From positions 310,001-374,000 of the forward strand of contig CAMPDV010000269.1 in NCBI GenBank assembly GCA_946699065.1: a stretch of 64,000 nucleotides of DNA. The letters run 5' to 3'. Each line of letters starts with the position of its first letter. The first letter of the stretch is position 1. Positions 1-64,000 of this stretch are shown piece by piece. The DNA comes from Loxodes magnus. Lineage: Eukaryota > Ciliophora > Karyorelictea > Loxodida > Loxodidae. The translations under genes and the position numbers were made by a program. The notes beneath the pieces are model-generated. The model saw only the letters and a program-made list of their open reading frames with translations, was not told the DNA's origin and did no database searches.

Positions 1-395
1 TCTGAATCACTGGATATAGCCACAGATGATACAGAACTAGTGCGACCACTCATGGTCTTACAAGTACCTGTCTTGACGTTCCATAGTCTCACCGTATTAT
101 CACTACTTCCCGATACGATGAACTCTGAATCACTGGATATAGCCACAGATAATACAGAACTAGAGTGACCACTCATGGTCTTACAAGTACCTGTCTTGAC
201 GTTCCATAGTCTCACCGTATAATCATGACTTCCCGATACGATGAACTCTGAATCAATGGATATAGCCACAGATGATACATAACTAGTGTGACCACTCATG
301 GTCTTACAGGTACCTGTCTTGACGTTCCATAGTCTCACCGTATAATCATGACTTCCCGATACGATGAACTCTGAATCAATGGATATAGCCACAGA

Positions 396-1199
396 TCATA
401 CATAACCAGTGTGACCACTCATGGTCTTACAGGTACCTGTCTTGACGTTCCATAGTCTCACCGTATAATCATGACTTCCCGATACGATGAACTCTGAATC
501 AATGGATATAGCCACAGATGATACATAATCTGTGTGACCACTCATGGTCTTACAGGTACCTGTCTTGACGTCCCATAGTCTCACCGTATAATCATGACTT
601 CCCGATACGATGAACTCTGAATCACTGGATATAGCCACAGATAGTACATAATGTGTGTGACCACTCATGGTCTTACAGGTACCTGTCTTGACGTTCCATA
701 GTCTCACCGTATAATCATGACTTCCCGATACGATGAACTCTGAATCAATGGATATAGCCACAGATGATACAGAATAAGTGAGACCACTCTTGGTCTTACA
801 GGTACCTGTCTTGACGTTCCATAGTCTCACTGTCGAATCTCTACTTCCCGATACGATGAACTCTGAATCACTGGATATAGCCACAGATGATACAGAATAA
901 GTGAGACCACTCTTGGTCTTACAGGTACCTGTCTTGACGTTCCATAGTCTCACCGTATAATCATGACTTCCCGATACGATGAACTCTGAATCAATGGATA
1001 TAGCCACAGCATATACAGAATTTGTGTGACCACTCATGGTCTTACAGGTACCTGTCTTGACGTTCCATAGTCTCACCGTATTATCACTACTTCCCGATAC
1101 GATGAACTCTGAATCACTGGATATAGCCACAGATGATACAGAATAAGTGAGACCACTCTTGGTCTTACAGGTACCTGTCTTGACGTTCCATAGTCTCAC
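396..1199 (-). CDS. Stop-free WD40 run, 7 blades (267 codons)
   Basis: Seven tetrad tryptophans (VRLW) lie between the TGA at 396 and the upstream TGA at 1257. From the protein N-side the turns after the first VRLW are SDN, HDY, RDS, HDY, HDY, HDY. Three blades carry the linked K15-L18-Y20 form (KSGLTYSV). One blade has V-Y-A-V in place of V-S-S-V (near 1010). The nominal start is the GTG of VRLW because column 25 of the upstream unit is GAG rather than GTG, so the start is an artefact of the repeat. The count matches one propeller, but other runs range from 1 to 10 blades, so this may be chance. Confidence 0.45.
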   Translation of the reverse strand: MRLWNVKTGTCKTKSGLTYSVSSVAISSDSEFIVSGSSDNTVRLWNVKTGTCKTMSGHTNSVYAVAISIDSEFIVSGSHDYTVRLWNVKTGTCKTKSGLTYSVSSVAISSDSEFIVSGSRDSTVRLWNVKTGTCKTKSGLTYSVSSVAISIDSEFIVSGSHDYTVRLWNVKTGTCKTMSGHTHYVLSVAISSDSEFIVSGSHDYTVRLWDVKTGTCKTMSGHTDYVSSVAISIDSEFIVSGSHDYTVRLWNVKTGTCKTMSGHTGYV

Positions 1200-1749
1200 T
1201 GTCGAATCTCTACTTCCCGATACGATGAACTCTGAATCACTGGATATAGCCTCAGATCATACAGAATTTGTGTGACCACTCATGGTCTTACAGGTACCTG
1301 TCTTGACGTTCCATAGTCTCACCGTATAATCATGACTTCCCGATACGATGAACTCTGAATCACTGGATATAGTCACAGATGATACAGAACTAGTGCGACC
1401 ACTCATGGTCTTACAAGTACCTGTCTTGACGTTCCATAGTCTCACCGTATAATCATGACTTCCCGATACGATGAACTCTGAATCAATGGATATAGCCACA
1501 GATCATACAGAATTTGTGTGACCACTCATGGTCTTACAGGTACCTGTCTTGACGTTCCATAGTCTCACCGTATTATCACTACTTCCCGATACGATGAACT
1601 CTGAATCACTGGATATAGCCACAGATGATACAGAATAAGTGAGACCACTCTTGGTCTTACAGGTACCTGTCTTGACGTTCCATAGTCTCACCGTATAATC
1701 ATGACTTCCCGATACGATGAACTCTGAATCACTGGATATAGCCACAGAT

Positions 1750-3225
1750 AGTACAGAATTTGTGTGACCACTCATGGTCTTACAGGTACCTGTCTTGACG
1801 TTCCATAGTCTCACCGTATAATCATGACTTCCCGATACGATGAACTCTGAATCAATGGATATAGCCACAGATGATACATAACTAGTGTGACCACTCATGG
1901 TCTTACAGGTACCTGTCTTGACGTTCCATAGTCTCACCGTATTATCACTACTTCCCGATACGATGAACTCTGAATCAATGGATATAGCCACAGATCATAC
2001 ATAACCAGTGTGACCACTCATGGTCTTACAGGTACCTGTCTTGACGTCCCATAGTCTCACCGTCTCATCTCAACTTCCCGATACGATGAACTCTGAATCA
2101 CTGGATATAGCCACAGATCATACAGAATAAGTGAGACCACTCTTGGTCTTACAGGTACCTGTCTTGACGTTCCATAGTCTCACCGTATAATCATGACTTC
2201 CCGATACGATGAACTCTGAATCAATGGATATAGACACAGATCATACAGAATTTGTGTGACCACTCATGGTCTTACAAGTACCTGTCTTGACGTTCCATAG
2301 TCTCACCGTATAATCATGACTTCCCGATACGATGAACTCTGAATCAATGGATATAGACACAGATAGTACATAATGTGTGTGACCACTCATGGTCTTACAG
2401 GTACCTGTCTTGACGTTCCATAGTCTCACCGTATAATCATGACTTCCCGATACGATGAACTCTGAATCACTGGATATAGCCACAGATGATACAGAACTAG
2501 TGCGACCACTCATGGTCTTACAAGTACCTGTCTTGACGTTCCATAGTCTCACCGTATAATCATGACTTCCCGATACGATGAACTCTGAATCACTGGATAT
2601 AGCCTCAGATCATACAGAATTTGTGTGACCACTCATGGTCTTACAGGTACCTGTCTTGACGTTCCATAGTCTCACCGTCTCATCTCTACTTCCCGATACG
2701 ATGAACTCTGAATCACTGGATATAGCCACAGATGATACAGAACTAGTGCGACCACTCATGGTCTTACAAGTACCTGTCTTGACGTTCCATAGTCTCACCG
2801 TATTATCACTACTTCCCGATACGATGAACTCTGAATCACTGGATATAGCCACAGATGATACAGAATAAGTGAGACCACTCATGGTCTTACAGGTACCTGT
2901 CTTGACGTCCCATAGTCTCACCGTCTCTTCTCTACTTCCCGATACGATGAACTCTGAATCACTGGATATAGCCACAGATCATACAGAATTTGTGTGACCA
3001 CTCATGGTCTTACAGGTACCTGTCTTGACGTTCCATAGTCTCACCGTATAATCATGACTTCCCGATACGATGAACTCTGAATCAATGGATATAGCCACAG
3101 ATCATACATAACCAGTGTGACCACTCATGGTCTTACAGGTACCTGTCTTGACGTTCCATAGTCTCACCGTATAATCATGACTTCCCGATACGATGAACTC
3201 TGAATCAATGGATATAGACACAGAT
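1750..3225 (-). repeat. 12-unit higher-order repeat, copy 1
   Basis: This 1,476-bp block contains diagnostic stops at 1995, 2070, 2118, 2241, 2610, 2979 and 3102. All recur at +1,476 bp. It includes one of only two column-39 TGA codons (2070-2072). The left boundary is set by 1749 (CTA-type column 23) against 3225 (TGA). Confidence 0.85.
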
Positions 3226-4700
3226 CATACAGAATTTGTGTGACCACTCATGGTCTTACAGGTACCTGTCTTGACGTTCCATAGTCTCACCGTATAATCA
3301 TGACTTCCCGATACGATGAACTCTGAATCAATGGATATAGCCACAGATGATACATAACTAGTGTGACCACTCATGGTCTTACAGGTACCTGTCTTGACGT
3401 TCCATAGTCTCACCGTATTATCACTACTTCCCGATACGATGAACTCTGAATCAATGGATATAGCCACAGATCATACATAACCAGTGTGACCACTCATGGT
3501 CTTACAGGTACCTGTCTTGACGTCCCATAGTCTCACCGTCTCATCTCAACTTCCCGATACGATGAACTCTGAATCACTGGATATAGCCACAGATCATACA
3601 GAATAAGTGAGACCACTCTTGGTCTTACAGGTACCTGTCTTGACGTTCCATAGTCTCACCGTATAATCATGACTTCCCGATACGATGAACTCTGAATCAA
3701 TGGATATAGACACAGATCATACAGAATTTGTGTGACCACTCATGGTCTTACAAGTACCTGTCTTGACGTTCCATAGTCTCACCGTATAATCATGACTTCC
3801 CGATACGATGAACTCTGAATCAATGGATATAGACACAGATAGTACATAATGTGTGTGACCACTCATGGTCTTACAGGTACCTGTCTTGACGTTCCATAGT
3901 CTCACCGTATAATCATGACTTCCCGATACGATGAACTCTGAATCACTGGATATAGCCACAGATGATACAGAACTAGTGCGACCACTCATGGTCTTACAAG
4001 TACCTGTCTTGACGTTCCATAGTCTCACCGTATAATCATGACTTCCCGATACGATGAACTCTGAATCACTGGATATAGCCTCAGATCATACAGAATTTGT
4101 GTGACCACTCATGGTCTTACAGGTACCTGTCTTGACGTTCCATAGTCTCACCGTCTCATCTCTACTTCCCGATACGATGAACTCTGAATCACTGGATATA
4201 GCCACAGATGATACAGAACTAGTGCGACCACTCATGGTCTTACAAGTACCTGTCTTGACGTTCCATAGTCTCACCGTATTATCACTACTTCCCGATACGA
4301 TGAACTCTGAATCACTGGATATAGCCACAGATGATACAGAATAAGTGAGACCACTCATGGTCTTACAGGTACCTGTCTTGACGTCCCATAGTCTCACCGT
4401 CTCTTCTCTACTTCCCGATACGATGAACTCTGAATCACTGGATATAGCCACAGATCATACAGAATTTGTGTGACCACTCATGGTCTTACAGGTACCTGTC
4501 TTGACGTTCCATAGTCTCACCGTATAATCATGACTTCCCGATACGATGAACTCTGAATCAATGGATATAGCCACAGATCATACATAACCAGTGTGACCAC
4601 TCATGGTCTTACAGGTACCTGTCTTGACGTTCCATAGTCTCACCGTATAATCATGACTTCCCGATACGATGAACTCTGAATCAATGGATATAGACACAGA
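3226..4700 (-). repeat. 12-unit higher-order repeat, copy 2
   Basis: Stops at 3471, 3546, 3594, 3717, 4086, 4455 and 4578 mirror copy 1. The match ends by 4701, where TGA is replaced by the THYVL codon CTA. A two-unit repeat (HDY/THYVL, 246 bp) follows between about 4,700 and 4,950. Confidence 0.85.
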
Positions 4701-5689
4701 TAGTACATAATGTGTGTGACCACTCATGGTCTTACAGGTACCTGTCTTGACGTTCCATAGTCTCACCGTATAATCATGACTTCCCGATACGATGAACTCT
4801 GAATCAATGGATATAGCCACAGATCATACATAACCAGTGTGACCACTCATGGTCTTACAGGTACCTGTCTTGACGTTCCATAGTCTCACCGTATAATCAT
4901 GACTTCCCGATACGATGAACTCTGAATCAATGGATATAGACACAGATAGTACATAATGTGTGTGACCACTCATGGTCTTACAGGTACCTGTCTTGACGTT
5001 CCATAGTCTCACCGTATAATCATGACTTCCCGATACGATGAACTCTGAATCACTGGATATAGCCACAGATGATACAGAACTAGTGCGACCACTCATGGTC
5101 TTACAAGTACCTGTCTTGACGTTCCATAGTCTCACCGTATAATCATGACTTCCCGATACGATGAACTCTGAATCACTGGATATAGCCTCAGATCATACAG
5201 AACTAGTGCGACCACTCATGGTCTTACAGGTACCTGTCTTGACGTTCCATAGTCTCACTGTCGAATCTCTACTTCCCGATACGATGAACTCTGAATCACT
5301 GGATATAGCCACAGATAATACAGAACTAGAGTGACCACTCATGGTCTTACAGGTACCTGTCTTGACGTTCCATAGTCTCACCGTCTCATCTCTACTTCCC
5401 GATACGATGAACTCTGAATCACTGGATATAGCCACAGATGATACAGAACTAGTGTGACCACTCATGGTCTTACAGGTACCTGTCTTGACGTCCCATAGTC
5501 TCACCGTTTTATCATAACTTCCCGATACGATGAACTCTGAATCACTGGATATAGCCACAGATCTTACATATCTAGTGTGACCACTCATGGTCTTACAGGT
5601 ACCTGTCTTGACGTCCCATAGTCTCACCGTTTTATCATAACTTCCCGATACGATGAACTCTGAATCACTGGATATAGCCACAGCATATA

Positions 5690-5704
5690 CATAATGTGTG
5701 ACCA
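5690..5704. other. 2-bp deletion (frameshift) in a GT run
   Basis: The landmarks at 5647 and 5768 are 121 bp apart instead of 123. The unit encodes the H-T-H-Y-V variant, whose plus strand normally has three GT steps before GACCAC; here one GT is missing. This is a dinucleotide-slippage signature, either biological or a sequencing or assembly error. Confidence 0.9.
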
Positions 5705-8033
5705 CTCATGGTCTTACAGGTACCTGTCTTGACGTCCCATAGTCTCACCGTTTTATCATAACTTCCCGATACGATGAACTCTGAATCACTGGATATAGCC
5801 ACAGATGATACATAACTAGTGTGACCACTCATGGTCTTACAGGTACCTGTCTTGACGTTCCATAGTCTCACCGTATAATCATGACTTCCCGATACGATGA
5901 ACTCTGAATCAATGGATATAGCCACAGATAGTACATAATGTGTGTGACCACTCATGGTCTTACAGGTACCTGTCTTGACGTTCCATAGTCTCACCGTCTC
6001 ATCTCTACTTCCCTATACGATGAACTCTGAATCACTGGATATAGCCACAGATAGTACATAATGTGTGTGACCACTCATGGTCTTACAGGTACCTGTCTTG
6101 ACGTCCCATAGTCTCACCGTATAATCATAACTTCCCGATACGATGAACTCTGAATCACTGGATATAGCCACAGATGATACAGAACTAGTGCGACCACTCA
6201 TGGTCTTACAAGTACCTGTCTTGACGTTCCATAGTCTCACCGTATAATCATGACTTCCCGATACGATGAACTCTGAATCAATGGATATAGACACAGATAG
6301 TACATAATGTGTGTGACCACTCATGGTCTTACAGGTACCTGTCTTGACGTTCCATAGTCTCACTGTCGAATCTCTACTTCCCGATACGATGAACTCTGAA
6401 TCACTGGATATAGCCACAGATGATACATAACTAGTGTGACCACTCATGGTCTTACAGGTACCTGTCTTGACGTTCCATAGTCTCACCGTATTATCACTAC
6501 TTCCCGATACGATGAACTCTGAATCACTGGATATAGCCACAGATGATACAGAATAAGTGAGACCACTCATGGTCTTACAAGTACCTGTCTTGACGTTCCA
6601 TAGTCTCACCGTATTATCACTACTTCCCGATACGATGAACTCTGAATCAATGGATATAGACACAGATCATACAGAATTTGTGTGACCACTCATGGTCTTA
6701 CAGGTACCTGTCTTGACGTTCCATAGTCTCACCGTATAATCATGACTTCCCGATACGATGAACTCTGAATCAATGGATATAGCCACAGATCATACATAAC
6801 CAGTGTGACCACTCATGGTCTTACAGGTACCTGTCTTGACGTTCCATAGTCTCACCGTATAATCATGACTTCCCGATACGATGAACTCTGAATCAATGGA
6901 TATAGCCACAGATGATACATAACTAGTGTGACCACTCATGGTCTTACAGGTACCTGTCTTGACGTTCCATAGTCTCACCGTCTCATCTCTACTTCCCGAT
7001 ACGATGAACTCTGAATCACTGGATATAGCCACAGATGATACAGAATAAGTGAGACCACTCTTGGTCTTACAGGTACCTGTCTTGACGTTCCATAGTCTCA
7101 CCGTATAATCATGACTTCCCGATACGATGAACTCTGAATCAATGGATATAGCCACAGATGATACATAACTAGTGTGACCACTCATGGTCTTACAGGTACC
7201 TGTCTTGACGTTCCATAGTCTCACCGTATTATCATCACTTCCCGATACGATGAACTCTGAATCACTGGATATAGCCACAGATGATACAGAATAAGTGAGA
7301 CCACTCTTGGTCTTACAGGTACCTGTCTTGACGTTCCATAGTCTCACCGTATTATCACTACTTCCCGATACGATGAACTCTGAATCACTGGATATAGCCT
7401 CAGATCATACAGAATAAGTGAGACCACTCTTGGTCTTACAGGTACCTGTCTTGACGTCCCATAGTCTCACCGTATAATCATAACTTCCCGATACGATGAA
7501 CTCTGAATCACTGGATATAGACACAGATCATACAGAACTAGTGCGACCACTCATGGTCTTACAGGTACCTGTCTTGACGTTCCATAGTCTCACTGTCGAA
7601 TCTCTACTTCCCGATACGATGAACTCTGAATCACTGGATATAGCCTCAGATCATACAGAATTTGTGTGACCACTCATGGTCTTACAGGTACCTGTCTTGA
7701 CGTTCCATAGTCTCACCGTATAATCATGACTTCCCGATACGATGAACTCTGAATCAATGGATATAGCCACAGATCATACAGAACTAGAGTGACCACTCAT
7801 GGTCTTACAGGTACCTGTCTTGACGTTCCATAGTCTCACCGTATAATCACTACTTCCCGATACGATGAACTCTGAATCAATGGATATAGCCACAGATGAT
7901 ACATAACTAGTGTGACCACTCATGGTCTTACAGGTACCTGTCTTGACGTCCCATAGTCTCACCGTATAATCATAACTTCCCGATACGATGAACTCTGAAT
8001 CACTGGATATAGCCACAGATGATACATAATGTG
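5698..8033 (-). other. WD40 reading-frame block 2
   Basis: The units between the two 2-bp deletions are in their own phase, about 19 blades. Column-23 TGA codons begin at 6667, 6790, 7405, 7528, 7651 and 7774, and one column-36 TAG lies at 6013. The unusual YDK turn clusters at the block 1/2 junction (about 5,460-5,770), where D rather than N follows the tetrad tryptophan. Confidence 0.8.
6013..6663 (-). CDS. Stop-free WD40 run ending in TAG (216 codons)
   Basis: This is the only run in block 2 that ends in TAG; it stops just before the SGS turn of an RDE blade. Turns from the N-side are SDN, SDN, RDS, HDY, YDY. The first residues read S-I-S-I instead of A-I-S, the A26S form that usually goes with an I29 unit. 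YDY is paired with D at column 6, as in most of the window. No ribosome-binding or promoter-like sequence is possible in front of the GTG, because the upstream DNA is another blade. Confidence 0.4.
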   Translation of the reverse strand: MSISIDSEFIVSGSSDNTVRLWNVKTGTCKTMSGLTYSVSSVAISSDSEFIVSGSSDNTVRLWNVKTGTCKTMSGHTSYVSSVAISSDSEFIVSGSRDSTVRLWNVKTGTCKTMSGHTHYVLSVSISIDSEFIVSGSHDYTVRLWNVKTGTCKTMSGRTSSVSSVAISSDSEFIVSGSYDYTVRLWDVKTGTCKTMSGHTHYVLSVAISSDSEFIV

Positions 8034-8038
8034 TGACC
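8026..8038. other. 2-bp deletion (frameshift) in the same GT run
   Basis: The landmarks at 7982 and 8103 are 121 bp apart. The same GT step is lost in the same H-T-H-Y-V context as near 5698. The two events share the sequence position but sit in units with different neighbours (YDK/Y-A upstream against YDY/S-S here), so either the defect moved by conversion or the site slips repeatedly. Confidence 0.9.
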
Positions 8039-8386
8039 ACTCATGGTCTTACAGGTACCTGTCTTGACGTTCCATAGTCTCACCGTATAATCATGACTTC
8101 CCGATACGATGAACTCTGAATCAATGGATATAGCCACAGATGATACATAACTAGTGTGACCACTCATGGTCTTACAGGTACCTGTCTTGACGTTCCATAG
8201 TCTCACCGTATTATCACTACTTCCCGATACGATGAACTCTGAATCACTGGATATAGCCACAGATGATACATAACTAGTGTGACCACTCATGGTCTTACAG
8301 GTACCTGTCTTGACGTTCCATAGTCTCACTGTCTCATCTCTACTTCCCTATACGATGAACTCTGAATCACTGGATATAGCCACATA

Positions 8387-9121
8387 TCATACATAACTAG
8401 TGTGACCACTCATGGTCTTACAGGTACCTGTCTTGACGTCCCATAGTCTCACCGTATAATCATAACTTCCCGATACGATGAACTCTGAATCACTGGATAT
8501 AGCCACAGATGATACAGAACTAGTGTGACCACTCATGGTCTTACAAGTACCTGTCTTGACGTTCCATAGTCTCACCGTATAATCATGACTTCCCGATACG
8601 ATGAACTCTGAATCAATGGATATAGCCACAGATGATACATAACTAGTGTGACCACTCATGGTCTTACAGGTACCTGTCTTGACGTTCCATAGTCTCACTG
8701 TCGAATCTCTACTTCCGGATACGATGAACTCTGAATCACTGGATATAGCCACAGCATATACATAACTAGTGTGACCACTCATGGTCTTACAGGTACCTGT
8801 CTTGACGTTCCATAGTCTCACCGTATAATCATGACTTCCCGATACGATGAACTCTGAATCACTGGATATAGCCACAGATCTTACAGAATTAATGTGACCA
8901 CTCATGGTCTTACAGGTACCTGTCTTGACGTTCCATAGTCTCACCGTATAATCATGACTTCCCGATACGATGAACTCTGAATCAATGGATATAGCCACAG
9001 ATGATACATAACTAGTGTGACCACTCATGGTCTTACAGGTACCTGTCTTGACGTTCCATAGTCTCACCGTATTATCACTACTTCCCGATACGATGAACTC
9101 TGAATCACTGGATATAGCCAC
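8387..9121 (-). CDS. Stop-free WD40 run, 6 blades
   Basis: Turns from the N-side are SDN, HDY, HDY, RDS, HDY, YDY. Two rare blade tops occur here: H-I-N-S-V-R (8881-8893) and T-S-Y-V-Y-A (near 8757). Both recur together 17,466 bp (142 units) away in 25976-26587, which marks them as homologous positions of the 71-unit repeat. The serine at column 36 of one unit uses TCC instead of TCG because of a private C-to-G change at 8717. The stop is a TGA followed by TAT. Confidence 0.45.
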   Translation of the reverse strand: MAISSDSEFIVSGSSDNTVRLWNVKTGTCKTMSGHTSYVSSVAISIDSEFIVSGSHDYTVRLWNVKTGTCKTMSGHINSVRSVAISSDSEFIVSGSHDYTVRLWNVKTGTCKTMSGHTSYVYAVAISSDSEFIVSGSRDSTVRLWNVKTGTCKTMSGHTSYVSSVAISIDSEFIVSGSHDYTVRLWNVKTGTCKTMSGHTSSVSSVAISSDSEFIVSGSYDYTVRLWDVKTGTCKTMSGHTSYV

Positions 9122-11896: not shown

Positions 11897-12076
11897 TGTC
11901 TCATCTCTACTTCCCTATACGATGAACTCTGAATCACTGGATATAGCCACATATCATACATAACTAGTGTGACCACTCATGGTCTTACAGGTACCTGTCT
12001 TGACGTCCCATAGTCTCACCGTATAATCATGACTTCCCGATACGATGAACTCTGAATCAATGGATATAGCCACAGA

Positions 12077-20629: not shown

Positions 20630-20809
20630 TGTCTCATCTCTACTTCCCTATACGATGAACTCTGAATCACTGGATATAGCCACATATCATACATAACTAG
20701 TGTGACCACTCATGGTCTTACAGGTACCTGTCTTGACGTCCCATAGTCTCACCGTATAATCATGACTTCCCGATACGATGAACTCTGAATCAATGGATAT
20801 AGCCACAGA

Positions 20810-40700: not shown

Positions 40701-43700
40701 ACGATGAACTCTGAATCAATGGATATAGCCACAGATGATACATAACTAGTGTGACCACTCATGGTCTTACAGGTACCTGTCTTGACGTTCCATAGTCTCA
40801 CCGTATAATCATGACTTCCCGATACGATGAACTCTGAATCAATGGATATAGCCACAGATGATACATAACTAGTGTGACCACTCATGGTCTTACAGGTACC
40901 TGTCTTGACGTTCCATAGTCTCACCGTATTATCACTACTTCCCGATACGATGAACTCTGAATCACTGGATATAGCCTCAGATCATACAGAATTTGTGTGA
41001 CCACTCATGGTCTTACAGGTACCTGTCTTGACGTTCCATAGTCTCACCGTATAATCATGACTTCCCGATACGATGAACTCTGAATCAATGGATATAGCCA
41101 CAGATGATACATAACTAGTGTGACCACTCATGGTCTTACAGGTACCTGTCTTGACGTTCCATAGTCTCACCGTCTCATCTCTACTTCCCTATACGATGAA
41201 CTCTGAATCACTGGATATAGCCACAGATAGTACATAATGTGTGTGACCACTCATGGTCTTACAGGTACCTGTCTTGACGTCCCATAGTCTCACTGTCGAA
41301 TCTCTACTTCCCGATACGATGAACTCTGAATCACTGGATATAGCCTCAGATCATACAGAATTTGTGTGACCACTCATGGTCTTACAGGTACCTGTCTTGA
41401 CGTTCCATAGTCTCACCGTATAATCATGACTTCCCGATACGATGAACTCTGAATCAATGGATATAGCCACAGATCATACATAACCAGTGTGACCACTCAT
41501 GGTCTTACAGGTACCTGTCTTGACGTTCCATAGTCTCACCGTATAATCATGACTTCCCGATACGATGAACTCTGAATCAATGGATATAGCCACAGATGAT
41601 ACATAACTAGTGTGACCACTCATGGTCTTACAGGTACCTGTCTTGACGTTCCATAGTCTCACCGTATTATCACTACTTCCCGATACGATGAACTCTGAAT
41701 CACTGGATATAGCCACAGATCATACATAACCAGTGTGACCACTCATGGTCTTACAGGTACCTGTCTTGACGTTCCATAGTCTCACCGTCTCATCTCTACT
41801 TCCCTATACGATGAACTCTGAATCACTGGATATAGCCACAGATAGTACATAATGTGTGTGACCACTCATGGTCTTACAGGTACCTGTCTTGACGTCCCAT
41901 AGTCTCACCGTATAATCATGACTTCCCGATACGATGAACTCTGAATCACTGGATATAGCCACAGATGATACAGAACTAGTGCGACCACTCATGGTCTTAC
42001 AAGTACCTGTCTTGACGTTCCATAGTCTCACCGTATTATCACTACTTCCCGATACGATGAACTCTGAATCAATGGATATAGACACAGATCATACAGAATT
42101 TGTGTGACCACTCATGGTCTTACAGGTACCTGTCTTGACGTTCCATAGTCTCACCGTATAATCATGACTTCCCGATACGATGAACTCTGAATCAATGGAT
42201 ATAGCCACAGATCATACATAACCAGTGTGACCACTCATGGTCTTACAGGTACCTGTCTTGACGTTCCATAGTCTCACCGTATTATCACTACTTCCCGATA
42301 CGATGAACTCTGAATCACTGGATATAGCCACAGATCATACATAACCAGTGTGACCACTCATGGTCTTACAGGTACCTGTCTTGACGTTCCATAGTCTCAC
42401 CGTCTCATCTCTACTTCCCGATACGATGAACTCTGAATCACTGGATATAGCCACAGATAATACAGAACTAGAGTGACCACTCATGGTCTTACAGGTACCT
42501 GTCTTGACGTTCCATAGTCTCACCGTATTATCACTACTTTCCGATACGATGAACTCTGAATCACTGGATATAGCCTCAGATCATACAGAATAAGTGAGAC
42601 CACTCTTGGTCTTACAGGTACCTGTCTTGACGTTCCATAGTCTCACCGTATTATCACTACTTCCCGATACGATGAACTCTGAATCACTGGATATAGCCTC
42701 AGATCATACAGAATAAGTGAGACCACTCTTGGTCTTACAGGTACCTGTCTTGACGTCCCATAGTCTCACTGTCGAATCTCTACTTCCCGATACGATGAAC
42801 TCTGAATCACTGGATATAGCCACAGATAATACATAACTAGTGTGACCACTCATGGTCTTACAGGTACCTGTCTTGACGTTCCATAGTCTCACCGTATTAT
42901 CACTACTTCCCGATACGATGAACTCTGAATCACTGAATATAGCCACAGATCATACATAACCAGTGTGACCACTCATGGTCTTACAGGTACCTGTCTTGAC
43001 GTTCCATAGTCTCACCGTCTCATCTCTACTTCCCTATACGATGAACTCTGAATCACTGGATATAGCCACAGATAGTACATAATGTGTGTGACCACTCATG
43101 GTCTTACAGGTACCTGTCTTGACGTCCCATAGTCTCACCGTATAATCATAACTTCCCGATACGATGAACTCTGAATCACTGGATATAGCCACAGATGATA
43201 CAGAACTAGTGCGACCACTCATGGTCTTACAAGTACCTGTCTTGACGTTCCATAGTCTCACCGTATTATCACTACTTCCCGATACGATGAACTCTGAATC
43301 AATGGATATAGACACAGATCATACAGAATTTGTGTGACCACTCATGGTCTTACAGGTACCTGTCTTGACGTTCCATAGTCTCACCGTATAATCATGACTT
43401 CCCGATACGATGAACTCTGAATCAATGGATATAGCCACAGATGATACATAACTAGTGTGACCACTCATGGTCTTACAGGTACCTGTCTTGACGTTCCATA
43501 GTCTCACCGTATTATCACTACTTCCCGATACGATGAACTCTGAATCACTGGATATAGCCACAGATCATACATAACCAGTGTGACCACTCATGGTCTTACA
43601 GGTACCTGTCTTGACGTTCCATAGTCTCACCGTCTCATCTCTACTTCCCTATACGATGAACTCTGAATCACTGGATATAGCCACAGATAGTACATAACCA

Positions 43701-44102: not shown

Positions 44103-44225
44103 TTGACGTCCCATAGTCTCACCGTATAATCTCCACTTCCCGATACGATGAAATCTGAATCACTGGATATAGCCACAGCATATACAGAACTAGTGTAACC
44201 ACTCATGGTCTTACAGGTACCTGTC
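44103..44225 (-). repeat. Most divergent single unit in the array
   Basis: This blade combines three changes I saw nowhere else: GDY turn (44132-44134), E32D (44153) and H18Y (44197). It also has the less common D6 and V-Y-A-V. It is still exactly 123 bp, in frame, and keeps the tetrad tryptophan and S-G-S. Confidence 0.8.
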
Positions 44226-53158: not shown

Positions 53159-53980
53159 TGATACAGAATAAGTGAGACCACTCTTGGTCTTACAGGTACC
53201 TGTCTTGACGTTCCATAGTCTCACTGTCGAATCTCTACTTCCCGATACGATGAACTCTGAATCACTGGATATAGCCTCAGATCATACAGAATTTGTGTGA
53301 CCACTCATGGTCTTACAGGTACCTGTCTTGACGTTCCATAGTCTCACCGTATAATCATGACTTCCCGATACGATGAACTCTGAATCAATGGATATAGCCA
53401 CAGATCATACATAACCAGTGTGACCACTCATGGTCTTACAGGTACCTGTCTTGACGTTCCATAGTCTCACCGTATAATCATGACTTCCCGATACGATGAA
53501 CTCTGAATCAATGGATATAGCCACAGATGATACATAACTAGTGTGACCACTCATGGTCTTACAGGTACCTGTCTTGACGTCCCATAGTCTCACCGTATAA
53601 TCATAACTTCCCGATACGATGAACTCTGAATCAATGGATATAGACACAGATCATACAGAATTTGTGTGACCACTCATGGTCTTACAGGTACCTGTCTTGA
53701 CGTTCCATAGTCTCACCGTATAATCATGACTTCCCGATACGATGAACTCTGAATCACTGGATATAGCCACAGATCATACAGAACTAGTGCGACCACTCAT
53801 GGTCTTACAGGTACCTGTCTTGACGTTCCATAGTCTCACCGTATTATCACTACTTCCCGATACGATGAACTCTGAATCAATGGATATAGCCACAGATGAT
53901 ACATAACTAGTGTGACCACTCATGGTCTTACAGGTACCTGTCTTGACGTTCCATAGTCTCACCGTCTCATCTCTACTTCC

Positions 53981-55246: not shown

Positions 55247-55702
55247 AGATCATACAGAATAAGTGAGACCACTCTTGGTCTTACAGGTACCTGTCTTGAC
55301 GTTCCATAGTCTCACCGTATTATCACTACTTCCCGATACGATGAACTCTGAATCACTGGATATAGCCACAGATAATACAGAACTAGAGTGACCACTCATG
55401 GTCTTACAGGTACCTGTCTTGACGTTCCATAGTCTCACCGTATTATCACTACTTCCCGATACGATGAACTCTGAATCACTGGATATAGCCACAGATGATA
55501 CATAACTAGTGTGACCACTCATGGTCTTACAGGTACCTGTCTTGACGTTCCATAGTCTCACCGTATTATCACTACTTCCCGATACGATGAACTCTGAATC
55601 ACTGGATATAGCCACAGATCATACAGAACTAGAGTGACCACTCATGGTCTTACAGGTACCTGTCTTGACGTTCCATAGTCTCACCGTCTCATCTCTACTT
55701 CC

Positions 55703-56845
55703 CTATACGATGAACTCTGAATCAATGGATATAGCCACAGATGATACATAACTAGTGTGACCACTCATGGTCTTACAGGTACCTGTCTTGACGTCCCATA
55801 GTCTCACCGTATAATCATAACTTCCCGATACGATGAACTCTGAATCACTGGATATAGCCACAGATGATACAGAACTAGTGCGACCACTCATGGTCTTACA
55901 AGTACCTGTCTTGACGTTCCATAGTCTCACCGTCTCGTCTCTACTTCCCGATACGATGAACTCTGAATCACTGGATATAGCCACAGATAGTACATAATGT
56001 GTGTGACCACTCATGGTCTTACAGGTACCTGTCTTGACGTTCCATAGTCTCACCGTCTCATCTCTACTTCCCGATACGATGAACTCTGAATCACTGGATA
56101 TAGCCACAGATAGTACATAATGTGTGTGACCACTCATGGTCTTACAGGTACCTGTCTTGACGTCCCATAGTCTCACCGTATAATCATAACTTCCCGATAC
56201 GATGAACTCTGAATCACTGGATATAGACACAGATGATACAGAACTAGTGTGACCACTCATGGTCTTACAGGTACCTGTCTTGACGTTCCATAGTCTCACC
56301 GTCTCATCTCTACTTCCCGATACGATGAACTCTGAATCACTGGATATAGCCACAGATAGTACATAATGTGTGTGAACACTCATGGTCTTACAGGTACCTG
56401 TCTTGACGTCCCATAGTCTCACCGTATAATCATAACTTCCCGATACGATGAACTCTGAATCACTGGATATAGCCACAGATGATACATAACTAGTGTGACA
56501 ACTCATGGTCTTACAGGTACCTGTCTTGACGTTCCATAGTCTCACCGTATTATCACTACTTCCCGATACGATGAACTCTGAATCACTGGATATAGCCACA
56601 GATAATACAGAACTAGAGTGACCACTCATGGTCTTACAGGTACCTGTCTTGACGTTCCATAGTCTCACCGTATTATCACTACTTCCCGATACGATGAACT
56701 CTGAATCACTGGATATAGCCACAGATGATACATAACTAGTGTGACCACTCATGGTCTTACAGGTACCTGTCTTGACGTTCCATAGTCTCACCGTATTATC
56801 ACTACTTCCCGATACGATGAACTCTGAATCACTGGATATAGCCAC
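55703..56845 (-). CDS. Stop-free WD40 run ending in TAG, 9 blades (380 codons)
   Basis: Turns are SDN, SDN, SDN, YDY, RDE, YDY, RDE, RDE, YDY, and the stop is TAG before the next SGS. Two GH dipeptides are altered, S-C-H-T (near 56500) and S-V-H-T (near 56376). A synonymous GAC aspartate (A-to-G at 55937) is private to this run. Its N-side three SDN blades match those of 55250-55615 and 56849-58075 at 1,230-bp spacing. Confidence 0.45.
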   Translation of the reverse strand: MAISSDSEFIVSGSSDNTVRLWNVKTGTCKTMSGHTSYVSSVAISSDSEFIVSGSSDNTVRLWNVKTGTCKTMSGHSSSVLSVAISSDSEFIVSGSSDNTVRLWNVKTGTCKTMSCHTSYVSSVAISSDSEFIVSGSYDYTVRLWDVKTGTCKTMSVHTHYVLSVAISSDSEFIVSGSRDETVRLWNVKTGTCKTMSGHTSSVSSVSISSDSEFIVSGSYDYTVRLWDVKTGTCKTMSGHTHYVLSVAISSDSEFIVSGSRDETVRLWNVKTGTCKTMSGHTHYVLSVAISSDSEFIVSGSRDETVRLWNVKTGTCKTMSGRTSSVSSVAISSDSEFIVSGSYDYTVRLWDVKTGTCKTMSGHTSYVSSVAISIDSEFIV

Positions 56846-56848
56846 AGA

Positions 56849-58075
56849 TCATACAGAACTAGAGTGACCACTCATGGTCTTACAGGTACCTGTCTTGACG
56901 TTCCATAGTCTCACCGTATAATCACTACTTCCCGATACGATGAACTCTGAATCACTGGATATAGCCACAGATGATACAGAATAAGTGAGACCACTCTTGG
57001 TCTTACAGGTACCTGTCTTGACGTTCCATAGTCTCACTGTCGAATCTCTACTTCCCGATACGATGAACTCTGAATCACTGGATATAGCCACAGATAGTAC
57101 ATAATGTGTGTGACCACTCATGGTCTTACAGGTACCTGTCTTGACGTCCCATAGTCTCACCGTATAATCATAACTTCCCGATACGATGAACTCTGAATCA
57201 CTGGATATAGCCACAGATGATACAGAACTAGTGCGACCACTCATGGTCTTACAAGTACCTGTCTTGACGTTCCATAGTCTCACCGTATTATCACTACTTC
57301 CCGATACGATGAACTCTGAATCACTGGATATAGCCACAGATAATACAGAACTAGAGTGACCACTCATGGTCTTACAAGTACCTGTCTTGACGTTCCATAG
57401 TCTCACCGTATAATCATGACTTCCCGATACGATGAACTCTGAATCACTGGATATAGCCACAGATGATACATAACTAGTGTGACCACTCATGGTCTTACAG
57501 GTACCTGTCTTGACGTTCCATAGTCTCACTGTCGAATCTCTACTTCCCGATACGATGAACTCTGAATCACTGGATATAGCCACAGATAATACAGAACTAG
57601 AGTGACCACTCATGGTCTTACAGGTACCTGTCTTGACGTTCCATAGTCTCACCGTCTCATCTCTACTTCCCGATACGATGAACTCTGAATCACTGGATAT
57701 AGCCACAGATGATACAGAACTAGTGTGACCACTCATGGTCTTACAGGTACCTGTCTTGACGTTCCATAGTCTCACCGTATTATCACTACTTCCCGATACG
57801 ATGAACTCTGAATCACTGGATATAGCCACAGATAATACAGAACTAGAGTGACCACTCATGGTCTTACAGGTACCTGTCTTGACGTTCCATAGTCTCACCG
57901 TATTATCACTACTTCCCGATACGATGAACTCTGAATCACTGGATATAGCCACAGATGATACATAACTAGTGTGACCACTCATGGTCTTACAGGTACCTGT
58001 CTTGACGTTCCATAGTCTCACCGTATTATCACTACTTCCCGATACGATGAACTCTGAATCACTGGATATAGCCAC
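56849..58075 (-). CDS. Stop-free WD40 run, 10 blades (408 codons)
   Basis: Turns are SDN, SDN, SDN, RDE, RDS, HDY, SDN, YDY, RDS, SDY, giving six different turn types in ten blades, among the most diverse of any run here. Tops include TSYVS, HSSSVL, TSSVS, R-TSSVS, THYVL and L-TYSVS. It is bounded by TGA on both sides. The C-side six blades recur in 58079-58813. Confidence 0.5.
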   Translation of the reverse strand: MAISSDSEFIVSGSSDNTVRLWNVKTGTCKTMSGHTSYVSSVAISSDSEFIVSGSSDNTVRLWNVKTGTCKTMSGHSSSVLSVAISSDSEFIVSGSSDNTVRLWNVKTGTCKTMSGHTSSVSSVAISSDSEFIVSGSRDETVRLWNVKTGTCKTMSGHSSSVLSVAISSDSEFIVSGSRDSTVRLWNVKTGTCKTMSGHTSYVSSVAISSDSEFIVSGSHDYTVRLWNVKTGTCKTMSGHSSSVLSVAISSDSEFIVSGSSDNTVRLWNVKTGTCKTMSGRTSSVSSVAISSDSEFIVSGSYDYTVRLWDVKTGTCKTMSGHTHYVLSVAISSDSEFIVSGSRDSTVRLWNVKTGTCKTKSGLTYSVSSVAISSDSEFIVSGSSDYTVRLWNVKTGTCKTMSGHSSSV

Positions 58076-58078
58076 AGA

Positions 58079-58813
58079 TCATACAGAACTAGAGTGACCA
58101 CTCATGGTCTTACAGGTACCTGTCTTGACGTTCCATAGTCTCACCGTATAATCACTACTTCCCGATACGATGAACTCTGAATCACTGGATATAGCCACAG
58201 ATGATACAGAATAAGTGAGACCACTCTTGGTCTTACAGGTACCTGTCTTGACGTTCCATAGTCTCACTGTCGAATCTCTACTTCCCGATACGATGAACTC
58301 TGAATCACTGGATATAGCCACAGATAGTACATAATGTGTGTGACCACTCATGGTCTTACAGGTACCTGTCTTGACGTCCCATAGTCTCACCGTATAATCA
58401 TAACTTCCCGATACGATGAACTCTGAATCACTGGATATAGCCACAGATGATACAGAACTAGTGCGACCACTCATGGTCTTACAAGTACCTGTCTTGACGT
58501 TCCATAGTCTCACCGTATTATCACTACTTCCCGATACGATGAACTCTGAATCACTGGATATAGCCACAGATAATACAGAACTAGAGTGACCACTCATGGT
58601 CTTACAAGTACCTGTCTTGACGTTCCATAGTCTCACCGTATAATCATGACTTCCCGATACGATGAACTCTGAATCAATGGATATAGCCACAGATGATACA
58701 TAACTAGTGTGACCACTCATGGTCTTACAGGTACCTGTCTTGACGTTCCATAGTCTCACCGTATTATCACTACTTCCCGATACGATGAACTCTGAATCAC
58801 TGGATATAGCCAC
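58079..58813 (-). CDS. Stop-free WD40 run, 6 blades
   Basis: Turns are SDN, HDY, SDN, YDY, RDS, SDY. From the HDY blade on it matches the C-side of 56849-58075 at +1,230 bp, except that the blade near 58674 has I at column 29 where the other has S. Confidence 0.4.
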   Translation of the reverse strand: MAISSDSEFIVSGSSDNTVRLWNVKTGTCKTMSGHTSYVSSVAISIDSEFIVSGSHDYTVRLWNVKTGTCKTMSGHSSSVLSVAISSDSEFIVSGSSDNTVRLWNVKTGTCKTMSGRTSSVSSVAISSDSEFIVSGSYDYTVRLWDVKTGTCKTMSGHTHYVLSVAISSDSEFIVSGSRDSTVRLWNVKTGTCKTKSGLTYSVSSVAISSDSEFIVSGSSDYTVRLWNVKTGTCKTMSGHSSSV

Positions 58814-59288
58814 AGATCATACAGAACTAGTGCGACCACTCATGGTCTTACAGGTACCTGTCTTGACGTTCCATAGTCTCACTGTCGAATCTCTACTTCC
58901 CGATACGATGAACTCTGAATCACTGGATATAGCCACAGATAATACAGAACTAGAGTGACCACTCATGGTCTTACAGGTACCTGTCTTGACGTTCCATAGT
59001 CTCACCGTATTATCACTACTTCCCGATACGATGAACTCTGAATCACTGGATATAGCCACAGATCATACAGAACTAGTGCGACCACTCATGGTCTTACAGG
59101 TACCTGTCTTGACGTTCCATAGTCTCACCGTATTATCACTACTTCCCGATACGATGAACTCTGAATCACTGGATATAGCCACAGATAATACAGAACTAGA
59201 GTGACCACTCATGGTCTTACAGGTACCTGTCTTGACGTTCCATAGTCTCACCGTATTATCACTACTTCCCGATACGATGAACTCTGAA

Positions 59289-59298
59289 TCACTGATAT
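59289..59298. other. 1-bp deletion (frameshift) in a GG pair
   Basis: The landmarks at 59271 and 59393 are 122 bp apart. The ACTGGATA element present in other units reads ACTGATA here. It is the only single-base length change I found. A homopolymer dropout from long-read sequencing is as likely as a real mutation. Confidence 0.9.
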
Positions 59299-59999
59299 AG
59301 CCTCAGATCATACAGAATAAGTGAGACCACTCTTGGTCTTACAGGTACCTGTCTTGACGTTCCATAGTCTCACCGTATTATCACTACTTCCCGATACGAT
59401 GAACTCTGAATCACTGGATATAGCCACAGATGATACAGAACTAGTGCGACCACTCATGGTCTTACAGGTACCTGTCTTGACGTTCCATAGTCTCACCGTA
59501 TTATCACTACTTCCCGATACGATGAACTCTGAATCACTGGATATAGCCACAGATCATACAGAATTTGTGTGACCACTCATGGTCTTACAGGTACCTGTCT
59601 TGACGTTCCATAGTCTCACCGTATTATCACTACTTCCCGATACGATGAACTCTGAATCACTGGATATAGCCACAGATAATACAGAACTAGAGTGACCACT
59701 CATGGTCTTACAGGTACCTGTCTTGACGTTCCATAGTCTCACCGTATTATCACTACTTCCCGATACGATGAACTCTGAATCACTGGATATAGCCACAGAT
59801 GATACATAACTAGTGTGACCACTCATGGTCTTACAGGTACCTGTCTTGACGTTCCATAGTCTCACCGTATAATCATGACTTCCCGATACGATGAACTCTG
59901 AATCAATGGATATAGCCACAGATGATACATAATCTGTGTGACCACTCATGGTCTTACAGGTACCTGTCTTGACGTTCCATAGTCTCACCGTATTATCAC

Positions 60000-61460
60000 T
60001 ACTTCCCGATACGATGAACTCTGAATCACTGGATATAGCCTCAGATCATACAGAATAAGTGAGACCACTCTTGGTCTTACAGGTACCTGTCTTGACGTTC
60101 CATAGTCTCACTGTCGAATCTCTACTTCCCGATACGATGAACTCTGAATCACTGGATATAGCCACATATCATACAGAATTTGTGTGACCACTCATGGTCT
60201 TACAGGTACCTGTCTTGACGTTCCATAGTCTCACCGTATTATCACTACTTTCCGATACGATGAACTCTGAATCACTGGATATAGCCACAGATAATACAGA
60301 ACTAGAGTGACCACTCATGGTCTTACAGGTACCTGTCTTGACGTTCCATAGTCTCACCGTATTATCACTACTTCCCGATACGATGAACTCTGAATCAATG
60401 GATATAGCCTCAGATCATACAGAATAAGTGAGACCACTCTTGGTCTTACAGGTACCTGTCTTGACGTTCCATAGTCTCACTGTCGAATCTCTACTTCCCG
60501 ATACGATGAACTCTGAATCAATGGATATAGCCACAGATGATACATAACTAGTGTGACCACTCATGGTCTTACAGGTACCTGTCTTGACGTTCCATAGTCT
60601 CACCGTATAATCATGACTTCCCGATACGATGAACTCTGAATCAATGGATATAGCCACAGATGATACATAACTAGTGTGACCACTCATGGTCTTACAAGTA
60701 CCTGTCTTGACGTTCCATAGTCTCACCGTATTATCACTACTTCCCGATACGATGAACTCTGAATCACTGGATATAGCCACAGATGATACATAACTAGTGT
60801 GACCACTCATGGTCTTACAGGTACCTGTCTTGACGTTCCATAGTCTCACCGTATAATCATGACTTCCCGATACGATGAACTCTGAATCAATGGATATAGC
60901 CACAGATGATACATAACTAGTGTGACCACTCATGGTCTTACAGGTACCTGTCTTGACGTTCCATAGTCTCACCGTATTATCACTACTTCCCGATACGATG
61001 AACTCTGAATCACTGGATATAGCCTCAGATCATACAGAATAAGTGAGACCACTCTTGGTCTTACAGGTACCTGTCTTGACGTTCCATAGTCTCACTGTCG
61101 AATCTCTACTTCCCGATACGATGAACTCTGAATCACTGGATATAGCCACATATCATACAGAATTTGTGTGACCACTCATGGTCTTACAGGTACCTGTCTT
61201 GACGTTCCATAGTCTCACCGTATTATCACTACTTTCCGATACGATGAACTCTGAATCACTGGATATAGCCACAGATAATACAGAACTAGAGTGACCACTC
61301 ATGGTCTTACAGGTACCTGTCTTGACGTTCCATAGTCTCACCGTATTATCACTACTTCCCGATACGATGAACTCTGAATCAATGGATATAGCCTCAGATC
61401 ATACAGAATAAGTGAGACCACTCTTGGTCTTACAGGTACCTGTCTTGACGTTCCATAGTC
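60000..61460 (-). repeat. 8-unit spaced (984-bp) duplication, about 4 units conserved
   Basis: Stops 60046, 60169 and 60415 recur at 61030, 61153 and 61399. Both sets include the TGA-TAT unit, the G37E (S-E-S) unit and a V25E unit with I29. Beyond 60475 and 61460 the turn differs (RDS against HDY), so the duplicated core is about 0.45 kb. Confidence 0.75.
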
Positions 61461-62010
61461 TCACCGTATAATCATGACTTCCCGATACGATGAACTCTGA
61501 ATCAATGGATATAGCCACAGATGATACATAACTAGTGTGACCACTCATGGTCTTACAGGTACCTGTCTTGACGTTCCATAGTCTCACCGTATTATCACTA
61601 CTTCCCGATACGATGAACTCTGAATCACTGGATATAGCCACAGATAATACAGAACTAGAGTGACCACTCATGGTCTTACAGGTACCTGTCTTGACGTTCC
61701 ATAGTCTCACCGTCTCATCTCTACTTCCCGATACGATGAACTCTGAATCACTGGATATAGCCACAGATGATACAGAACTAGTGCGACCACTCATGGTCTT
61801 ACAGGTACCTGTCTTGACGTTCCATAGTCTCACCGTATTATCACTACTTCCCGATACGATGAACTCTGAATCACTGGATATAGCCACAGCATATACATGA
61901 CCAGTGTGACCACTCATGGTCTTACAGGTACCTGTCTTGACGTTCCATAGTCTCACCGTCTCATCTCTACTTCCCGATACGATGAACTCTGAATCAATGG
62001 ATATAGACAC
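61399..62010 (-). CDS. Stop-free WD40 run, 5 blades
   Basis: Turns are RDE, SDN, RDE, SDN, HDY. It starts with the S-I-S-I form and includes one T-G-H-V-Y-A top (near 61890), otherwise seen at 48.2, 49.1, 51.9, 52.8 and 63.4 kb. It ends at TGA followed by GAG (V25E). Confidence 0.4.
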   Translation of the reverse strand: MSISIDSEFIVSGSRDETVRLWNVKTGTCKTMSGHTGHVYAVAISSDSEFIVSGSSDNTVRLWNVKTGTCKTMSGRTSSVSSVAISSDSEFIVSGSRDETVRLWNVKTGTCKTMSGHSSSVLSVAISSDSEFIVSGSSDNTVRLWNVKTGTCKTMSGHTSYVSSVAISIDSEFIVSGSHDYTVRLWNVKTGTCKTKSGLTYSV

Positions 62011-62013
62011 AGA

Positions 62014-62994
62014 TCATACAGAATTTGTGTGACCACTCATGGTCTTACAGGTACCTGTCTTGACGTTCCATAGTCTCACCGTATAATCATGACTTCCCGA
62101 TACGATGAACTCTGAATCAATGGATATAGCCACAGATGATACATAATCTGTGTGACCACTCATGGTCTTACAGGTACCTGTCTTGACGTTCCATAGTCTC
62201 ACCGTATTATCATGACTTCCCGATACGATGAACTCTGAATCACTGGATATAGCCACAGATAATACAGAACTAGAGTGACCACTCATGGTCTTACAGGTAC
62301 CTGTCTTGACGTTCCATAGTCTCACCGTATAATCATGACTTCCCGATACGATGAACTCTGAATCACTGGATATAGCCACAGATGATACATAACTAGAGTG
62401 ACCACTCATGGTCTTACAGGTACCTGTCTTGACGTTCCATAGTCTCACCGTATTATCACTACTTCCCGATACGATGAACTCTGAATCACTGGATATAGCC
62501 ACAGATGATACAGAATAAGTGAGACCACTCTTGGTCTTACAGGTACCTGTCTTGACGTTCCATAGTCTCACCGTATAATCATGACTTCCCGATACGATGA
62601 ACTCTGAATCAATGGATATAGCCACAGATGATACATAACTAGTGTGACCACTCATGGTCTTACAGGTACCTGTCTTGACGTTCCATAGTCTCACCGTATT
62701 ATCACTACTTCCCGATACGATGAACTCTGAATCACTGGATATAGCCACAGATGATACAGAATAAGTGTGACCACTCTTGGTCTTACAGGTACCTGTCTTG
62801 ACGTTCCATAGTCTCACCGTATAATCATGACTTCCCGATACGATGAACTCTGAATCACTGGATATAGCCACAGATGATACATAACTAGTGTGACAACTCA
62901 TGGTCTTACAGGTACCTGTCTTGACGTTCCATAGTCTCACCGTCTCATCTCTACTTCCCGATACGATGAACTCTGAATCACTGGATATAGCCAC
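62014..62994 (-). CDS. Stop-free WD40 run, 8 blades (326 codons)
   Basis: Turns are RDE, HDY, SDN, HDY, SDN, HDY, HDN, HDY. It contains recombinant tops not seen in the 71-unit repeat: K-S-G-H-T-Y-S (K15 with H18, not the usual L18, near 62770) and H-S-S-Y. One GH is replaced by CH (near 62895). Although the same length as the 13799 family, its blade order is unrelated. Confidence 0.45.
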   Translation of the reverse strand: MAISSDSEFIVSGSRDETVRLWNVKTGTCKTMSCHTSYVSSVAISSDSEFIVSGSHDYTVRLWNVKTGTCKTKSGHTYSVSSVAISSDSEFIVSGSSDNTVRLWNVKTGTCKTMSGHTSYVSSVAISIDSEFIVSGSHDYTVRLWNVKTGTCKTKSGLTYSVSSVAISSDSEFIVSGSSDNTVRLWNVKTGTCKTMSGHSSYVSSVAISSDSEFIVSGSHDYTVRLWNVKTGTCKTMSGHSSSVLSVAISSDSEFIVSGSHDNTVRLWNVKTGTCKTMSGHTDYVSSVAISIDSEFIVSGSHDYTVRLWNVKTGTCKTMSGHTNSV

Positions 62995-63243
62995 AGATCA
63001 TACAGAATTTGTGTGACCACTCATGGTCTTACAGGTACCTGTCTTGACGTTCCATAGTCTCACCGTATAATCATGACTTCCCGATACGATGAACTCTGAA
63101 TCACTGGATATAGCCACAGATGATACATAACTAGTGTGACAACTCATGGTCTTACAGGTACCTGTCTTGACGTTCCATAGTCTCACCGTATAATCATGAC
63201 TTCCCGATACGATGAACTCTGAATCACTGGATATAGCCACAGA

Positions 63244-63801
63244 TCATACATAACCAGTGTGACCACTCATGGTCTTACAGGTACCTGTATTGACGTTCCA
63301 TAGTCTCACCGTATTATCACTACTTCCCGATACGATGAACTCTGAATCACTGGATATAGCCACAGCATATACATGACCAGTGTGACCACTCATGGTCTTA
63401 CAGGTACCTGTCTTGACGTTCCATAGTCTCACCGTATTATCACTACTTCCCGATACGATGAACTCTGAATCACTGGATATAGCCACAGATGATACAGAAT
63501 AAGTGAGACCACTCTTGGTCTTACAGGTACCTGTCTTGACGTTCCATAGTCTCACCGTATAATCATGACTTCCCGATACGATGAACTCTGAATCAATGGA
63601 TATAGCCACAGATGATACATAACTAGTGTGACCACTCATGGTCTTACAGGTACCTGTCTTGACGTTCCATAGTCTCACCGTATTATCACTACTTCCCGAT
63701 ACGATGAACTCTGAATCACTGGATATAGCCACAGATGATACAGAATAAGTGTGACCACTCTTGGTCTTACAGGTACCTGTCTTGACGTTCCATAGTCTCA
63801 C
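63244..63801 (-). CDS. Stop-free WD40 run, 5 blades, with K8N
   Basis: After the first VRLW, turns are SDN, HDY, SDN, SDN. Column 8 is N in the last blade (C-to-A at 63289), as at 49022 and 52712, and a T-G-H-V-Y-A top follows in the same order as at 48977-49534. This links the window's end to the 30-unit duplication, although here G17 is intact (GH rather than VH). Confidence 0.4.
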   Translation of the reverse strand: MRLWNVKTGTCKTKSGHTYSVSSVAISSDSEFIVSGSSDNTVRLWNVKTGTCKTMSGHTSYVSSVAISIDSEFIVSGSHDYTVRLWNVKTGTCKTKSGLTYSVSSVAISSDSEFIVSGSSDNTVRLWNVKTGTCKTMSGHTGHVYAVAISSDSEFIVSGSSDNTVRLWNVNTGTCKTMSGHTGYV

Positions 63802-64000
63802 TGTCGAATCTCTACTTCCCGATACGATGAACTCTGAATCACTGGATATAGCCTCAGATCATACAGAATTTGTGTGACCACTCATGGTCTTACAGGTACC
63901 TGTCTTGACGTTCCATAGTCTCACCGTATAATCATGACTTCCCGATACGATGAACTCTGAATCAATGGATATAGCCACAGATGATACATAACTAGTGTGA

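Follow-up and report, generated by a model that had tools for sequence, protein, structure and literature searches.

In-frame TGA at one column of a WD40 blade array in Loxodes magnus: a predicted tryptophan allele in a probable gene-derived satellite

A 64,000-nucleotide stretch of the ciliate Loxodes magnus (contig C269, CAMPDV010000269.1, positions 310,001 to 374,000; the whole stretch is called the window below) is a tandem array of WD40 blade units in which TGA recurs in frame, chiefly at one position of the blade, and this raises the question of how the codon is read there and what kind of element the array is. Sequence comparison indicates that TGA is almost certainly read as tryptophan under the known karyorelict code, and the array is probably, in the main, a satellite that arose from middle blades within a RING-like/pentapeptide/WD40 gene family. 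Taken as a whole, an explanation that combines a TGA-encoded Trp allele with a gene-derived WD40 satellite, the diversified ligand sites of which would stem from selection in the gene family, is one that we hold with good confidence.

TGA at one column of the blade

The window contains 520 anchors, all on the minus strand, which delimit 516 units with a length of exactly 123 bp and three whose length differs; a self-identity of 92.7% at a lag of 123 bases, measured by autocorrelation of the window, marks the blades as near-identical. Columns are numbered here from the V of V-S-G-S-x-D-x-T-V-R-L-W, which places the V-x-S-V site at column 30. The features of the window are as follows.

1..64000, minus strand: tandem array of 123-bp (41-codon) WD40 blade units, defined by anchor spacing and an autocorrelation period of 123
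42113..42973, minus strand: seven consecutive units, five with TGA at R1 (the top-face position at column 30, introduced below), modelled with TGA as Trp as a closed seven-bladed propeller
59237..59359, minus strand: 122-bp unit, frameshift, between minus-strand anchors 4641 and 4763
7948..8069, minus strand: 121-bp unit, frameshift, between minus-strand anchors 55931 and 56052
5613..5734, minus strand: 121-bp unit, frameshift, between minus-strand anchors 58266 and 58387

At column 30 the 516 units carry TCA (231), TGA (169), TTA (57), CTA (40), TAT (13) and AGA (6), with TGG absent, and all 516 have TGG for the tetrad Trp of column 12. Stop-type codons are found in 3 of the 41 columns of the window, as the 169 TGAs of column 30, two TGAs in column 5 and 24 TAGs in column 2. 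The TGA of column 30 is combined with six different tops, namely TNSV (68), TGYV (42), TYSV (22), TSSV (19), TSYV (11) and SSSV (7). These counts bear out the initial annotation, which had put TGA at V-x-S-V in about 170 of 520 units without TGG, named the same five other codons, and reported 38 of 41 columns without a stop, at least five tops combined with TGA and TGG at the invariant tetrad tryptophan; it did not name the TAG column and passed over the three units with frameshifts.

The column-30 TGA pattern persists well beyond the window. In the 202,032 bases of C269 that were analysed (210001-412032), 1,643 anchors, all on the same strand, extend from 210083 to 412015 with unbroken unit spacing, reaching the contig end and giving 1,613 units of 123 bp, a few of them out of register; between base 1 and 190,400 of the contig, six of six 400-bp samples held the same kind of unit. 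Over the 202 kb, stop-type codons appear in 9 of 41 columns: TGA in columns 30 (498), 5 (17) and 3 (5), TAG in columns 2 (56), 7 (10), 12 (1) and 39 (1), and TAA in columns 28 (3) and 38 (2). When we compared the six columns whose consensus codon lies one step from TGA, the 1,608 registered units held 497 TGAs in column 30, five in column 3 and none in columns 10, 12, 19 and 38. The confinement of TGA to column 30 does not look like chance.

Reading of TGA, TAA and TAG, and the residue at column 30

The TGA code of this ciliate is already known. The macronuclear assembly of Loxodes magnus (706 Mbp) is assigned NCBI table 27, in which UAA and UAG encode Gln and UGA is the sole stop, yet encodes Trp when it lies far enough upstream of the poly-A tail; a depletion of coding UGA just before the stop is also reported for this species (PMC11441545). 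In our own searches of the genome, HSP90 gave 31 matches, the best 14 of which hold 7-11 TAG and 5-10 TAA codons inside and no TGA, and in the two copies whose ends were read (L010 and L012) the frame runs to MEEVD and is followed by TGA. Thus TAA and TAG are sense codons and TGA can be a stop, the latter being demonstrated for the HSP90 gene only; the residue encoded by TAA and TAG, Gln, is taken from the published code. HSP90 genes also form a tandem array at C140:595230-626002, with a period of ~2.25 kb and some copies partial.

The dynein linker domain DHC_N2 provided the test of TGA inside genes. It gave 46 matches, of which the 28 strong ones hold 1-12 TAG and 5-19 TAA codons each; all 18 TGA-bearing paralogues among these 28 were taken as the test set, with the 18 weak matches excluded, translated with TGA as X and then aligned. 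The alignment contains 47 in-frame TGAs in 14 columns, 41 of which stand where most other paralogues have Trp, against a Trp background of 1.8% of residues. For one paralogue, L046, comparison with the PDB put all seven TGAs opposite W in 9fqr_X1; in 9d2f_U six stand opposite W and the seventh opposite S near the end of the alignment. The initial annotation had proposed a comparison of this kind, of in-frame TGA with Trp in conserved genes of the same genome, and together the Trp columns and the PDB match show that TGA inside genes is Trp in the Loxodes magnus genome.

Some results weigh against this reading of TGA. Of the 47 TGAs in the dynein alignment, six lie where Trp is not the majority residue, and 11 of the 31 HSP90 matches, all lower-ranked and left out of the alignments, contain TGA. 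A tRNA-Trp with a UCA anticodon, the search for which was a further check named in the initial annotation, was not found with two strict patterns (6 and 3 places genome-wide), a tRNA of other sequence still being possible: the six places of the first pattern are near-identical and AT-rich, five on C45 and one on C7715, and are not tRNA-like, and of the three places of the second the one inspected is not tRNA-like. In Condylostoma, where mass spectrometry together with ribosome profiling is reported to show UGA read as Trp, Swart et al. likewise failed to detect a tRNA-Trp(UCA) (PMC4967479). Collectively, Loxodes magnus agrees with the karyorelict nuclear code of table 27 (Loxodes, Parduczia), in which TAA and TAG are sense and TGA is Trp inside genes, with a stop at the HSP90 end; no tested difference from that code was found, and the oddity here is only the concentration of TGA in one column of an amplified repeat.

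To place that column on the propeller we used the scheme of positions D-1, R1-2 and R1, whose residues protrude from the top face or bind there and which includes Trp among the residues at R1 (PMC3419727). On the array unit, column 30 maps to R1, column 28 to R1-2 and column 5 to D-1. Our alignments thereby show the TGA of V-x-S-V as a predicted Trp allele of R1, a top-face contact residue of the blade. In 2ymu, the closest solved sequence, different blades have V-W-G-V, V-R-G-V and V-N-G-V at the aligned position, and the designer propeller 7big has V-T-G-V; the earlier remark that Trp is often found there in related WD40 families holds in part for 2ymu, with Trp in several blades and R or N in others. 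Pfam WD40 matches seven stretches of the 42113..42973 translation with TGA as Trp, and AlphaFold2 predicts a 28-strand propeller for these units, the best model having a mean predicted local distance difference test (pLDDT) score of 88.8 and a predicted template modelling (pTM) score of 0.87; four of the five models reach 87.9-88.8 pLDDT and one 39.8. Foldseek places the predicted fold nearest to solved WD40 propellers. Both 2ymu and the WRAP/Tako designer propellers are among the best sequence and fold matches to the array unit, and the R, W and N at the R1-equivalent position across 2ymu blades resemble the variable R1 of the array; these are compact solved propellers, however, whereas the array appears to be a genomic satellite.

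The blade is abundant throughout the assembly (705,730,643 bases searched). One blade 33-mer has 395,671 exact copies, compared with 0 for a reversed-pattern control, and at 123 bp per copy this amounts to 48.7 Mb or 6.9% of the assembly, a lower bound for the assembly given that only exact matches count, although array lengths may be wrong; the size gap between the two assemblies of the Loxodes genome study has been ascribed by its authors to misassembled low-complexity repeats (PMC11441545). Within a fixed 21-base context, R1 is TGA 70,049 times and TGG six times genome-wide. The six places with TGG are C6:83590, C110:734605, C193:55950, C271:193053, C1388:7856 and C3018:51819.

Selection signals and a seven-bladed gene family

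We counted variants in the 1,608 registered units against a neutral expectation of ~75% nonsynonymous, the mutation model being approximate. Variants present in at least four copies comprise 58 nonsynonymous and 4 synonymous (p = 1.5e-4). In the D-1, R1-2 and R1 columns, 8 of 9 sites are commonly variable, compared with 26 of 123 overall (hypergeometric p = 1.2e-5); with columns 7, 26 and 27 added, which were picked after seeing the data, the figure is 15 of 18. Columns 5, 7 and 30 vary at all three codon positions (permutation p = 0.002). This top-face variability fits diversifying selection of the kind reported in the Podospora NWD genes (PMC1805685).

A likely source of the unit is found in L059 (C2:231201-234700), a predicted gene whose frame is open under TGA = Trp. 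From the N-terminus it has a RING-like zinc finger (Pfam E 0.038, weak and below the cut-off), a coiled coil judged from sequence and pentapeptide repeats (E 1.9e-10), followed by seven blades of the WD40 type. Blades 2, 3 and 4 are identical to the window consensus at 117, 114 and 112 of 123 nt (91-95%), and blades 1, 5, 6 and 7 at 77, 74, 61 and 43 of 123 nt (35-63%). At the nucleotide level, our comparison thus shows that the array unit matches the middle part, blades 2-4, of this putative seven-bladed WD40 gene. TGA occupies R1 in two blades, 2 and 3, and in blade 6 it takes the place of the tetrad Trp (RI-W-D), a structural position; a further TGA, that of residue 829, may mark the end of the frame or be a sense codon.

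L059 is a member of a large and diverged family. Its N-terminal module has 84 scored matches, L059 included, of 3,313 candidates (C2:232470-233996, C148, C555 and 81 others), and the other 83 cover at least residues 1-507 at 54-72% identity, which is an underestimate because TAA, TAG and TGA positions seem to be scored as mismatches (L059 against itself gives 89% and 95% for the two modules). The C-terminal 119-aa module has at least 150 matches of 71,978 candidates, with TGA at least once in 150 of the 150 matches listed, L059 included; the position of this module within a gene is known from L059 only. Among the matches listed, 13 N/C pairs lie on the same contig and strand within 20 kb; in 12 of them the modules are 582-603 bp apart, and in the remaining pair 351 bp. 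Since 582-603 bp leaves room for five blades, the 12 pairs correspond to genes of seven-blade size.

The modules are also unevenly oriented at contig ends. Among the matches listed, the C-module within 10 kb of low contig ends is on the minus strand in 26 cases and on the plus strand in 2, and the N-module counts at low contig ends are 14 minus to 0 plus within 5 kb, rising to 18 minus and 3 plus when 10 kb are taken. Modules facing outward in this way may be either subtelomeric genes or the product of assembly breaks in arrays downstream. Membership of the NOD-like receptors (NLRs) was considered as well. NACHT has 31 matches genome-wide (best E 6.7e-7), and no NACHT was found upstream of the repeats: among the matches listed, the one closest to any array or WD40 gene lies ~200 kb off. 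NLR membership was rejected on the lack of NACHT near the WD40 repeats listed and on L059, the one gene read whole, which has pentapeptide repeats and the sub-cut-off RING match.

A second WD40 array family has 42-residue blades (WDFQTGSCLRTFTGHADSVLSIAISPDQKWIVSASYDKTIKV) and is represented by L003 and L005 (C1503), L057 (C6957) and L058 (C119). The L003 array closes with V-TGA-N-F-TGA, and AT-rich sequence lies beyond it. In the pieces of this family that were read, TGA occurs in three columns, V-W-S, D-W-V-R and R-T-W.

Satellite, gene or defective haplotype

No codon is a dedicated stop in this genome, so an open frame is no proof of a gene, and frameshifts and substitution patterns are needed instead. 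Among the 1,642 unit spacings of the 202 kb, 26 shift the frame, not being multiples of three, and 2 are in-frame deletions. The 28 odd-length units fall into 15 kinds, with seven copies of one frameshifted unit, which indicates that frameshifts were amplified along with the array. The frame-changing indels count against constraint on one long frame, and most array copies are probably untranslated. The initial annotation had taken the array for a gene, a view from which we depart: a satellite is the better reading given how large the array is, that frameshifts were amplified in it and that seven-bladed genes exist apart from it.

Several observations pull the other way, and most of them favour an alternative in which the arrays are translated, either as very large WD40 proteins or as many genes read from the array, with TGA as Trp and the frameshifts as gene ends or assembly errors. 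The longest in-frame runs reach 419, 417 and 290 units. Singleton variants (12 nonsynonymous, 13 synonymous) show a synonymous excess (p = 0.003; only 25 variants) that fits purifying selection and speaks against a wholly untranslated array. The second array family ends in TGA and AT-rich sequence at C1503, and seven units of the window are modelled as a confident propeller. Variants in 2-3 copies (17 nonsynonymous, 4 synonymous) do not depart from neutral, and the 20-kb pair filter is blind to genes with an array of more than 20 kb between their modules; both are further reservations about the satellite reading. Translation of the arrays must nonetheless contend with 202 kb without a gap in unit spacing, with the 26 frame-changing indels, some of them amplified, and with the seven-blade size of 12 of the 13 gene pairs among the matches listed within 20 kb, a set in which a giant-array gene would be missed. 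We consider translated arrays unlikely.

A defective haplotype, in which TGA is a real stop that hitch-hiked in the amplification of a dead WD40 gene, would accord with the amplified frameshifts and with the termination of the two HSP90 copies by TGA. It is already contradicted by the alignment of TGA to Trp in conserved dynein genes, and both the TGAs at structural and ligand Trp sites of the otherwise open L059 and the presence of TGA in every C-module among the matches listed argue against it; we regard it as very improbable. Less credible still, and with nothing found here in its favour, is a device limited to the array, whether A-to-I editing of its UGA codons or stop suppression of the ordinary kind: the reading of TGA as Trp in dynein genes makes it superfluous, and Condylostoma reads UGA as Trp by protein and ribosome evidence (PMC4967479). 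Of the four candidates offered in the initial annotation, the variant code with TGA as Trp is the one that the dynein alignments uphold, and editing, suppression and a defective haplotype fall away as superfluous. A standard-code pseudogene, editing and suppression were accordingly rejected on the dynein alignments and L059.

Returning to a gene-derived satellite, diversifying selection on expressed genes would have generated alleles at R1, R1-2 and D-1, and unequal crossing-over or gene conversion may have made the remainder of the blade uniform and multiplied it into satellite arrays. Such amplification would have spread Trp-TGA blades, and frameshifted ones, by chance. In L059, blades 2-4 are homogenised and the blades on either side of them have diverged, a pattern which suggests that arrays and genes may exchange blades. 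That the arrays could form a genome-scale archive of diversified ligand-binding blades, recombining with expressed seven-bladed RING-like/pentapeptide/WD40 genes, many of them outward-facing close to contig ends, and renewing their middle blades from hundreds of thousands of pooled units with Trp (TGA) as one selectable allele, is a further proposal that we find doubtful.

A close likeness is to the high-internal-conservation WD40 repeats of the Podospora NWD genes (het-d, het-e, hnwd), which share near-identical blades and variation focused on the propeller top face; the homogenised blades 2-4 of L059, the one gene read, may likewise reflect concerted evolution. The two systems differ in that no NACHT is seen here, the N-terminus being RING-like (weakly so), coiled coil and pentapeptide; in that L059 has seven blades, three of the shared type; and in that more than 395,000 blade copies lie here in satellite-sized arrays, compared with 69 in the Podospora S strain (PMC1805685). 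Gene-derived satellite DNA offers a further parallel, with long homogenised tandem arrays of tens of megabases, but the unit here is exactly one protein blade and its variable sites are focused on binding residues. WD40, WD repeat, beta-propeller and satellite go unmentioned in the body text of the published Loxodes genome study (PMC11441545), and a search of the open-licence literature returned nothing on WD40 in Loxodes, nor anything matching a WD40 satellite, megasatellite or ciliate, or a gene-derived satellite. To our knowledge, the ~49 Mb of blade DNA thus seems unreported, and the code part was already known. In Loxodes magnus one protein blade accounts for about 7% or more of the assembled genome, with its variation concentrated at binding residues, and this may matter: if genes and arrays exchange blades, the recognition repertoire would far exceed that of the Podospora S strain with its 69 units.

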